Shown: positions 15,987 to 19,925 of the stretch, one piece after another
Layout of the letters: every line of letters begins with the position of its first letter
Position numbering within the stretch: the first letter of the stretch is position 1
NCBI GenBank assembly: GCA_002162765.1
Contig: MAAR01000005.1
Span: 1 to 64,000 of the forward strand
Direction: 5' to 3'
Length of the DNA stretch: 64,000 bases
DNA from: Flavobacteriales bacterium 34_180_T64
Lineage (GTDB): Bacteria > Bacteroidota > Bacteroidia > Flavobacteriales > Flavobacteriaceae
Notes under the pieces: model-generated
Databases searched by the model: none
Seen by the model: only the letters and a program-made list of their open reading frames with translations
Told to the model about the DNA's origin: nothing
Made by a program: the position numbers and the translations under genes

Positions 15987-17504
15987 TTAGAACTTATAAC
16001 TAAGTCCTGTATATACACCAATAAAATAAGGTTGAAAATCTCCCGAACTATTATTGAATGTATTTATCTGATACTTGAACATCGGTTCAAGATTAATTTT
16101 AATTTTTTCTGAAACATTATAGTTTACACCAACACCTAGATTCGCACTATAACTTGTACTATTAATATTCGTTGCCTCTCCTATTAATGTTCTTTCACCC
16201 TCTAAATTTGAATAAATTTCATTTTTAGATAAAAACAAGGTGCTAAATCCACCGATAACATTTAAACCAATCTTTTTATTGATGAGGGAGTATTCAACTT
16301 CAAGAGGTATTTCAATAAAACCTAATTGCTGTTCTAGTGAACCTTTAATATTTGTATTCAGAATTTCAGGTGCAGAAGTGAGGTTTATTGATTCAGCACT
16401 TATAAAGATAGTTGCCTTCGAGTTGTTGTTATATTTTATGTTACTGCCTGCTCCATTTCTTGCGCCTATTCCACTGTATACAATAACGTTATTAGTGCTA
16501 TAACCCAAATTAACTTTATGAATACCGGCTCTAATTTTCAATTTTTCATTAAGTGCATAGCTTCCGCCAAGACCGTAACTCATATTTAGGTCTCCATTTT
16601 TAGTATTACCAATAAACTGCTCATGAATGGAAGAACCTTCTCCTAAAGTGTTGAAATAAACAGGTGCCACACTTGGAGAAATGTTCCACCTGTTTAGTTT
16701 CTCTTCTTCTTTTTCTTTTTCATTTGTGTTTTCAGCTAAAGCCATTGCATCTTCTATAGATGGACTTTCATCGGTTTCAGCTAAAATATCTTGCTCCGAA
16801 ATGGATTCATTTTCATTTAATGGAATTTGTTCTGTTTGTTTGGCAATAGCATTTTCTGGGCTTTCTTTACTATTTAAATCCAATGGCTCCAATTCGTTTT
16901 TAAGGATTACATTCGGATTAGGTTCAGGTAGATTTGAAGATTTTTTGGCAACTGTATATTTAGTGTTTTTACCAGTTGAATTATTAGGTTTTTGAGTAGC
17001 CGATGCGTTGGAATCGGATGTATTTGATTTTAAATTTTCACCATTTTTAGTTGTATTACTAGCAACGATATTTGGATTGTTGTTTCCTGGAGTGGTTAGA
17101 TTAGTATTCTTGTCTCTATTTGGATTCTGAACAAGATCATCATTAGATTTTGATTGGTCAGACACATCAAAATCTGTATTTGAAACAGGCTCTTTTTTTA
17201 GAGCCTCAGATTCCAATTCATTTGTAGAATTCTTATCAAGAATGTCATTAGTTGATGAATTTACGACAGGAAGATTGGTTTTATTATCTGTTTCTTTCAA
17301 TAATGCATTGGCAATTGTAAACATAAGAACCATTAGCGCAGCAACTCCGGCGACTCTCCACCAAAGCGGAATTAGAATTCTTCGTTTGCGCTTATCTTTA
17401 TGCAATGTATTATGGATGTTCTCCCAAACAGCATCATTAGGCGTCACCTCAAAATCCTTGAGGTTTTCTTGAAAAAGACGGTCTATGTTTTTTTTGTCAC
17501 TCAT
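15987..17504 (-). CDS. Predicted anti-sigma/outer-membrane beta-barrel fusion
   Basis: A 505-residue protein with an unusual layout. Residues 1-46 are polar and end in the basic stretch KDKRKRR (36-42). A single transmembrane helix follows at about 47-69 (LWWRVAGVAALMVLMF). Residues ~70-270 are a low-complexity Asn/Ser/Thr/Lys/Glu linker. Residues ~271-505 show alternating beta-strand patterns of an outer-membrane barrel and end in an aromatic residue (GLSYKF). By the positive-inside rule the N terminus is cytoplasmic. Its ATG overlaps the sigma gene stop (TAATG), so translation is coupled, and an anti-sigma role for the N-terminal tail is inferred. There is no zinc anti-sigma motif. It could alternatively be an ordinary barrel protein with an uncleaved anchor. 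Confidence 0.72.
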   Translation of the reverse strand: MSDKKNIDRLFQENLKDFEVTPNDAVWENIHNTLHKDKRKRRILIPLWWRVAGVAALMVLMFTIANALLKETDNKTNLPVVNSSTNDILDKNSTNELESEALKKEPVSNTDFDVSDQSKSNDDLVQNPNRDKNTNLTTPGNNNPNIVASNTTKNGENLKSNTSDSNASATQKPNNSTGKNTKYTVAKKSSNLPEPNPNVILKNELEPLDLNSKESPENAIAKQTEQIPLNENESISEQDILAETDESPSIEDAMALAENTNEKEKEEEKLNRWNISPSVAPVYFNTLGEGSSIHEQFIGNTKNGDLNMSYGLGGSYALNEKLKIRAGIHKVNLGYSTNNVIVYSGIGARNGAGSNIKYNNNSKATIFISAESINLTSAPEILNTNIKGSLEQQLGFIEIPLEVEYSLINKKIGLNVIGGFSTLFLSKNEIYSNLEGERTLIGEATNINSTSYSANLGVGVNYNVSEKIKINLEPMFKYQINTFNNSSGDFQPYFIGVYTGLSYKF

Positions 17505-18046
17505 TATAATAATTGCGAGTTTATGCTCGCTTTGTACTGTTCAATTTTATCTTTTAAAATCAAACGCGCTCTCGCTAGATTTGATTTTGAGGTTCCAGTT
17601 GAGATATGTAACATCTCAGCAATTTCTTTATGTGAATAATCATCTAACACATATAAATTAAAAACTAAGCGATAACGATCTGGCAATTCTTGAATAATTC
17701 CTAATAGAAAATCTACATTTATAGTATCATCATCAATTTCTATGCTAACATCTTCAATTTGATCTTCATTTATAATATCAAAAACACCAACACTTCTATA
17801 ACGTTGTAAAGCAGTGTTAATCGTAATTCGTTTCATCCAACCCTCTAAAGAACCTTTACTTTTATATTGTGATATTTTGTTGAAAATAGTCACAAACGCA
17901 TCTTGCAGATTATCTTCTGCTTCTACATAATTTTTCGAATACTTAAGACAAAGCGAAAATAATTTACTCGAAAAGAGCTTATATAATTGGCCTTGAGCTT
18001 TAGCATCGTTTTTTTTACAACGTTCAATGAGTTGTTCTAAACTCAA
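17504..18046 (-). CDS. ECF-type RNA polymerase sigma factor
   Basis: A 180-residue extracytoplasmic-function sigma factor. Region 2 (about 20-80) includes AEDNLQDAFVTIFNKISQY and the promoter-melting GWMKRITINTALQRYR. Region 4 (about 120-170) carries the helix-turn-helix DYSHKEIAEMLHISTGTSKSNLARAR. Regions 1 and 3 are absent, as expected. It is the middle gene of a three-gene operon, 30 nt after a lipoprotein gene and overlapping the barrel/anti-sigma gene by one base. A candidate self-recognised promoter lies upstream of the operon at 18522-18552. Confidence 0.93.
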   Translation of the reverse strand: MSLEQLIERCKKNDAKAQGQLYKLFSSKLFSLCLKYSKNYVEAEDNLQDAFVTIFNKISQYKSKGSLEGWMKRITINTALQRYRSVGVFDIINEDQIEDVSIEIDDDTINVDFLLGIIQELPDRYRLVFNLYVLDDYSHKEIAEMLHISTGTSKSNLARARLILKDKIEQYKASINSQLL

Positions 18047-18505: not shown

Positions 18506-18552
18506 TACACCTTTACATGGTGTAGATGCAGAATTCGTACAAAGGTTGCGTC
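18506..18552 (-). promoter_or_regulatory. Candidate ECF sigma promoter, operon copy, with overlapping inverted repeat
   Basis: On the minus strand TGACGCAACCTTT (18553-18541), ten bases, then TGCATCTAC (18530-18522). The AAC core of the upstream box and the spacing resemble ECF -35 and -10 elements. The same two blocks at the same spacing occur at 19665-19696 on the plus strand. An inverted repeat TACACC/GGTGTA (18506-18524) overlaps the downstream box and could be an operator. The ATG follows 34 nt after the -10-like box. Confidence 0.7.
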
Positions 18553-19664: not shown

Positions 19665-19696
19665 TGACGCAACCTTTTTGCACTTTTTGCATCTAC
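19665..19696 (+). promoter_or_regulatory. Candidate ECF sigma promoter, small-ORF copy
   Basis: TGACGCAACCTTT (19665-19677), ten bases, then TGCATCTAC (19688-19696). Both blocks and the spacer length are identical to the copy upstream of the lipoprotein-sigma operon on the other strand. The ATG of a 30-codon ORF follows 24 nt downstream. Confidence 0.7.
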
Positions 19697-19720: not shown

Positions 19721-19813
19721 ATGAAATTCTTTAAAAGAACCATTTTAAACAATGCATTAGGTGTTTCAATTGCTGTAAATATTAACAGTAATTGTAAAGC
19801 CGATGGTGGATAA
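19721..19813 (+). CDS. Small ORF, 30-residue peptide, unknown
   Basis: A short frame starting MKFFKRTILNNALGV and ending SNCKADGG. It has a basic start, a weakly hydrophobic middle, one Cys (position 25) and a Gly-Gly end. It is the only ORF in an otherwise empty 373-nt gap between recA and trhO. It is supported by a promoter-like motif 24 nt upstream and a strong terminator 53 nt downstream of its stop. The function is unknown. The transcript could instead act as a small RNA. Confidence 0.55.
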   Translation: MKFFKRTILNNALGVSIAVNINSNCKADGG

Positions 19814-19859
19814 CTCGTTTTTTTTTATTTAGAAGAATAAAAATATTAATAACGAGTTA
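19811..19859 (+). ncRNA. Nested stem-loop overlapping the small-ORF stop codon
   Basis: TAACTCGTT (19811-19819), whose first three bases are the stop codon, pairs with AACGAGTTA (19851-19859). Inside it TTTTTATT (19822-19829) pairs with AATAAAAA (19836-19843). The composite fold just before the terminator suggests a structured 3' UTR or a small RNA. Confidence 0.5.
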
Positions 19860-19865
19860 GTCCTC

Positions 19866-19899
19866 AAAAAGCGCTTTAGTCATAACTAAAGCGCTTTTT
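19866..19899 (+). terminator. Strong terminator of the small transcription unit
   Basis: AAAAAGCGCTTTAGT (19866-19880) and ACTAAAGCGCTTTTT (19885-19899) form a perfect 15-bp stem with a 4-nt loop and T-rich end. The only plus-strand unit it can serve is the 30-codon ORF, because recA runs the other way. Confidence 0.9.
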
Positions 19900-19925
19900 A
19901 ATTTAAAACAATCTGCAATTTTATT

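Follow-up and report, generated by a model that had tools for sequence, protein, structure and literature searches.

A predicted one-chain anti-sigma factor of the Dma/Reo type in Flavobacteriaceae

In Flavobacteriales bacterium 34_180_T64, the gene directly after that of an ECF sigma factor raises the question of whether a single protein chain can carry news of the outer membrane to a cytoplasmic sigma factor. An earlier note on this DNA (a 64,000-nucleotide stretch of contig MAAR01000005.1, hereafter the window) had proposed as much for the 505-residue product. It described a short cytoplasmic tail with KDKRKRR, one transmembrane helix, a linker of about 200 residues, a barrel-like C terminus ending in Phe and translation coupled to the sigma gene by TAATG, with no need of a separate anti-sigma protein. 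Published systems offer a comparison. In the available portions of the papers cited, Dma1 and Dma2 of Bacteroides thetaiotaomicron, which go with Das1 and Das2, have a sigma-binding N terminus, a transmembrane segment, a disordered tether, a barrel and an adjacent ECF sigma factor (PMC13088901), and EcfO-Reo of B. fragilis and P. vulgatus joins a sigma factor to a one-chain anti-sigma factor that reaches the surface (PMC9308784; PMC13114119). As far as those portions go, loss of the anti-sigma factor releases the cognate sigma factor in Bacteroides and Phocaeicola. With Reo and Dma already published, a categorically new architecture is ruled out.

Predicted anatomy of the chain and its locus

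The sigma protein matches sigma regions 2 and 4 in Pfam, and its stop codon TAA shares one base with the ATG of the 505-residue protein, placing the TAATG of the earlier note at positions 17502-17506. Of 78 named loci measured, 31 have such a one-base overlap, which is therefore common, not universal. By sequence inspection, a 136-aa lipoprotein gene and recA lie upstream and point the same way, and a PlsC-like gene downstream is convergent (Table 1).

Table 1. Features of the locus, in window coordinates.
Feature	Positions	Strand	Basis
Dma/Reo-type membrane-spanning anti-sigma factor (predicted), 505 aa	15987..17504	-	ORF, profile searches, AlphaFold2
Two-helix cytoplasmic sigma-binding tail (putative), residues 1-45	17370..17504	-	AlphaFold2, couplings, profile
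Transmembrane helix, residues 47-73, preceded by KDKRKRR	17286..17366	-	AlphaFold2, positive-inside rule
Disordered N/K/S/T/E-rich periplasmic tether (predicted), residues 74-267	16704..17285	-	pLDDT, length, composition
8-stranded outer-membrane beta barrel (predicted), residues 268-505, C-terminal Phe	15990..16703	-	AlphaFold2, structure matches; Pfam below cut-off
ECF sigma factor, 180 aa, TTG start	17504..18046	-	Pfam; shares TAATG with anti-sigma gene
Lipoprotein, operon gene 1, Ig-like fold (predicted), invariant C17/C61/C90	18077..18487	-	alignment, predicted structure
ECF-type promoter of operon (predicted), CGCAACC-N15-CATCTA	18523..18550	-	conserved motif
Second promoter copy (predicted), divergent from recA	19668..19695	+	conserved motif
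Small transcript, predicted to depend on sigma, with a 30-aa ORF (19721-19813) and a hairpin resembling a terminator (about 19866-19900)	19721..19900	+	

We modelled the protein with AlphaFold2 from a 64-row alignment (63 of the 80 named loci described below plus the window protein). The full-length model has a mean pLDDT of 66.3 and a pTM of 0.51, low values that are due to the tether. The tail forms helices at residues 5-16 and 24-35, KDKRKRR follows at residues 36-42, and a single transmembrane helix comes next. About 195 disordered residues then lead to the barrel; residues 74-246 have pLDDT below 50, and a helix at 250-264 stands near the tether end. Eight long strands lie within residues 273-503 at a pLDDT of about 90. 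Compared with solved structures, residues 268-505 matched eight-stranded barrels of the OmpA/OmpW/NspA type by Z scores of 16-18, among them NspA (Z 17.4, 154 residues, 3.5 Å), OmpA (Z 16.9, 164 residues, 3.0 Å) and OmpW (Z 16.5, 168 residues, 2.8 Å); other folds stand lower, both in this list and in that for the lipoprotein below. Pfam matches of the 505-residue protein to outer-membrane barrels all fell below cut-offs, and a search of PDB sequences with the full protein gave no match.

The same topology recurs among orthologues. From the transmembrane helix to the first strand, 232 distinct orthologues have tethers of 106-306 residues (median 205.5) and none shorter, 231 of them obey the positive-inside rule, and 250 of 253 orthologues end in Phe. 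The tail is conserved across orthologues, and the tether sequence barely so. A helix with the pattern SI-x-x-AI before the barrel (residues 248-264; window 16713-16763, minus strand) is conserved within the otherwise unconserved tether, with I250 present in 90% or more of orthologues; it is possibly a latch or a protease site.

Cleavage behind the transmembrane helix was among the findings that the earlier note had named as fatal to its proposal, as was a structure prediction lacking a barrel. In silico neither refutes it: a barrel is predicted, and a signal-peptidase site is not general among the orthologues. The window protein does carry A65-N66-A67 after the helix, a possible signal-peptidase site. 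Together with the poorly conserved tether and the HtrA-like and RseP-like proteases encoded in this genome, it lends some colour to a reading in which one gene yields two proteins, a routine cut near the transmembrane helix leaving the anti-sigma part as a stub in the inner membrane and the barrel on its own, so that nothing spans both membranes at rest. Yet A-x-A follows the helix in only 2 of 232 distinct orthologues, which rules out a cleaved signal peptide as the rule, and the absence of any tether below 106 residues, a length that calculates to about 36 nm when extended, looks as if a minimum span had been selected. We consider the two-protein reading quite unlikely; judged from sequence, the anchor is probably uncleaved. 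The AlphaFold2 anatomy, the barrel matches and the orthologue topology together confirm the description given by the earlier note.

A profile built from 27 proteins (the window protein, its paralogue and 25 of 29 other orthologue loci) gave a match in 204 of 249 sampled genomes of the Flavobacteriaceae at E≤1e-20; 45 gave no match at this threshold, and the listed ones among them are mostly small. Most genera of the family have orthologues of complete architecture, so that the architecture is not a chance feature. In a scan of contigs we found at least 548 encoding stretches, the best 80 of which were kept as named loci. The sigma gene lies directly upstream in 80 of these 80 best-matching loci, with a lipoprotein gene in 79, recA in 77, PlsC in 71 and TrpS in 68, counts that come from the most similar loci and hence not from a random sample, and for which some contigs end early.

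The tail and its sigma factor

Every one of the 257 tail-bearing loci has an adjacent ECF sigma gene. Mean-field coupling analysis was run on 236 distinct of these 257 tail-sigma pairs (effective number 112), four barrel-less and the duplicate pairs having been dropped; some genomes were double-named before de-duplication. The top coupling, scored at 5.92, joins tail D8 to sigma R161 in region 4; none of 51 permuted pairings exceeded 2.34, and five blocks of barrel columns paired with sigma peaked at 1.94-2.55. At these two sites the 236 pairs comprise 215 D-R, 14 E-K, 2 G-K and five singletons. In a tree from which site 161 was left out, read by eye, both sites change on 10 shared branches, eight of which exchange D and E along with R and K (hypergeometric chance 2.4e-17, with all branches treated as equal). 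The next couplings, N23-E44, Q12-D136, T33-V52 and T33-Q48, would bring helix 1 to sigma4 and helix 2 to sigma2; past D8-R161 and N23-E44 the next scores (2.30-1.57) are close to the barrel control maxima, and the pattern weakens below the top 10, with 9 of 20 among the top 20.

The pairing extends beyond the family. Among 40 hand-chosen regions from other families, two of which overlap, sigma adjoins the tail in 37. The 31 ungapped pairs are 21 D-R, 5 E-K, 3 E-R, 1 A-K and 1 K-R, making 26 either D-R or E-K. These patterns in sequence support a partnership of tail and sigma factor. The barrel model and the covariation thus uphold the topology and the partnership proposed earlier; the chain would not take the place of an anti-sigma factor, being itself the anti-sigma factor.

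Database searches gave the tail no name. It has no trusted match in Pfam or NCBIfam, and among 24 PDB sequences matching its profile at E≤10 there was no anti-sigma chain, only chance matches to ferredoxin and Cas5. Its mode of binding may nevertheless have a precedent. In the available part of PMC7406223, class I anti-sigma domains bind sigma4 through helix 1 and sigma2 through helix 4, and in the two-helix class II domain of CnrY helix 1 takes sigma4 and helix 2 takes sigma2. Unlike the four-helix class I domain (ASDI), the window protein has two helices before its transmembrane segment. Its strongest couplings, D8-R161 to sigma4 and N23-E44 and T33-V52/Q48 to sigma2, match the helix placement published for CnrY, which suggests that the tail works as CnrY does. 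On the side of difference, no sequence match between CnrY and the window tail was found, and CnrY is not known to us to carry a barrel.

The tail is also found on other C termini. Its 45-position profile matched in 77 of 296 Bacteroidota genomes; for Bacteroidia, the class of the window, a hand count gave 65 of 73 sampled genomes. Barrel-less tail proteins of 164-369 aa adjoin ECF sigma genes, and two larger proteins (L144:662-2908, minus strand, 748 aa; L150:2391-4706, plus strand, 771 aa) have the tail and transmembrane helix, lie beside an ECF sigma gene and continue into a SusC/RagA-type TonB plug, a VWA domain and, for type IX secretion, a type A sorting domain. Another two (L300:436-3123, minus strand, 895 aa; L301:331-2652, minus strand, 773 aa) join the tail to a TonB plug, VWA and YfbK_C and adjoin a rather different ECF sigma. 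In a 281-aa protein (L174:2652-3497, plus strand) the tail precedes a CHU_C type IX (type B) signal, and sigma lies directly upstream. The tail may be a general CnrY-like sigma-capturing head across Bacteroidia, swapped onto many envelope-reaching ends, with pair 8/161 (D-R or E-K) as part of a partner code, a proposal that we favour only slightly over its denial.

The window's own genome holds further copies. A 378-aa barrel protein with its own sigma factor is encoded at C13:264913-266046 on the plus strand (L002, L003) and has G-K in place of the D-R charge pair; a short tail-bearing protein lies in a 265-aa frame at C15:99947 (plus strand). Such paralogues, the G-K pair included, may reflect insulation between partners.

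The barrel, being an ordinary OmpA-like fold, would also suit an outer-membrane protein of the usual kind that has an unusual signal anchor and an incidental sigma neighbour. The unbroken presence of sigma beside the tail, conservation of the tail and not of the tether, the D8-R161 covariation and the ECF sigma genes beside barrel-less tails all speak against this, and we regard it as very improbable.

By its predicted anatomy, matched to the descriptions of Dma and Reo, the window protein is a flavobacterial anti-sigma factor of the Dma/Reo type: the single N-in transmembrane helix, the long disordered tether, the C-terminal barrel and the adjacent ECF sigma are all present, and the two-helix tail that covaries with sigma would correspond to the sigma-binding N-terminal domain. 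It differs from Dma1/Dma2 in that the locus belongs to Flavobacteriaceae, the operon opens with a short lipoprotein gene and recA adjoins. Features of the published systems also include a sigma factor of group ECF21 and, for Dma1/Dma2, a role in vesiculation. In the FecI-FecR-FecA system, an outer-membrane event is relayed to an ECF sigma factor through three chains and a TonB receptor. The system proposed here would share that relay, but with one chain, and Pfam found neither a FecR nor a plug domain in the window protein. The literature that we searched, with partial coverage, yielded no flavobacterial report of a one-chain Dma/Reo-type system; as far as that search goes, the D8-R161 pair, the flavobacterial promoter with its lipoprotein-rich set of sites (below) and the tail on other ends are new.

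Promoter, candidate regulon and a transcript beside recA

Between recA and the lipoprotein gene, ACGCAACC-N15-CATCTA occurs in 72 of 76 loci, and in these 72 the spacer from GCAACC to CATC is exactly 15 bases. The window's genome has five perfect sites, at the operon, on the recA side, at two lipoprotein genes and at one SusC-like gene, which starts 141 nt downstream of its site near a contig end. Among 26 genomes searched, this one included, 13 have perfect sites, in 34 places, compared with 2 for the reversed pattern. An ATG-initiated ORF of at least 80 residues begins within 80 nt of 19 of 32 distinct perfect sites, and all 19 start with a lipoprotein-type signal (nine being the operon lipoprotein and ten other genes, as split by eye); as background, the lipobox expression fits 74 of the 532 longer ORFs in the 80 named loci, operon lipoprotein included. 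From these sequence patterns, the sigma factor probably reads CGCAACC-N15-CATCTA promoters. Many of the candidate regulon lipoproteins (for example in L314, L315, L324 and L327) have acidic residues right after the lipid-bearing Cys (CxxDD), a stretch that looks like the signal for surface export in Bacteroidota lipoproteins.

This lipoprotein-rich set may recall EcfO-Reo, NigD lipoproteins being known targets of EcfO and Das1 in the available portions of the Dma and Reo papers. The operon lipoprotein differs in being a 136-aa protein with a weak structural match to C-terminal domains of NigD (Z 5.0-6.9). Modelled from an alignment of the window copy with 64 of the 79 lipoproteins, it is predicted to be an Ig-like sandwich (pLDDT 90.8), and structural comparison ranks highest the C-terminal domains of NigD-like or related Bacteroidales lipoproteins (5bmt, Z 6.9; 3k0y, 6.1; 3qwn, 6.1; 3nqi, 5.7). 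With Z below 8 and no Foldseek match at E≤0.001, the likeness is suggestive only; Pfam and NCBIfam searches of the lipoprotein gave no family name.

The second promoter, divergent from recA, is present in 65 of 76 loci. Of these 65, 19 have a 30-aa-type ORF ending in ADGG, as does the window. In some loci (for example L054, L062 and L075) the ORF is broken and the hairpin within it is kept. Over 17 selected sequences, 93.5% of hairpin cells are paired, with 20 double changes, and none of 500 shuffles scored as high; the alignment leaves out an eighteenth segment because of its long insert, and the hairpin flanks are conserved by construction because segments were picked by matching a search expression. 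Rfam returned sub-threshold matches only. The predicted transcript could act as a peptide, a regulatory RNA or both.

Mechanism and significance

We favour, at a probability of roughly 0.87, a Dma/Reo-type anti-sigma factor in which one chain runs from cytoplasm to outer membrane, its tail clamping the sigma factor until an envelope disturbance frees it to read CGCAACC-N15-CATCTA promoters. At rest, the covariation suggests, the tail would hold the neighbouring ECF sigma at the inner membrane, helix 1 on sigma4 through D8-R161 and helix 2 on sigma2, while the positively flanked transmembrane helix and the long disordered tether are predicted to connect it to the eight-stranded barrel. A disturbed outer membrane or disturbed barrel assembly would alter the chain so that the tail lets go. 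The alteration would most likely be a cut in the tether or transmembrane helix by HtrA-like and RseP-like proteases, which the window's genome encodes, as do nearly all control genomes; a misinserted or disturbed barrel would thus lead to cleavage and release of sigma. In the available portions of the Reo papers, ecfO-reo of P. vulgatus is induced by BcpT and by bacteroidetocin A, an inhibitor of BamA. Free sigma is predicted, from the conserved sites, to transcribe its own lipoprotein-sigma-anti-sigma operon, other lipoprotein genes and the small transcript beside recA.

Release might also come without proteolysis, by a direct relay such as the earlier note proposed, if movement of the barrel pulled on the transmembrane helix and tail. 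The continuous chain in the model and the lower bound on tether length would suit such a relay; a disordered tether of about 200 residues, by contrast, would be slack and transmit force poorly, and we hold this variant unlikely.

Under the favoured one-chain, protease-released reading, the joining of a barrel and a sigma-holding tail in one protein would turn the state of the outer membrane into a gene-expression signal through a single chain. A conserved flavobacterial locus next to recA, for which a contact pair, a promoter and a candidate regulon are now defined, opens this mechanism to experiment beyond gut Bacteroides. A tail common to barrel and non-barrel anti-sigma factors bears on which type of anti-sigma factor controls most Bacteroidetes ECF sigmas, only 6% of which adjoin a class I anti-sigma factor in the available part of PMC7406223. 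If the tail is indeed a general sigma-capturing head, it would be a main unlisted answer to that scarcity of class I neighbours.
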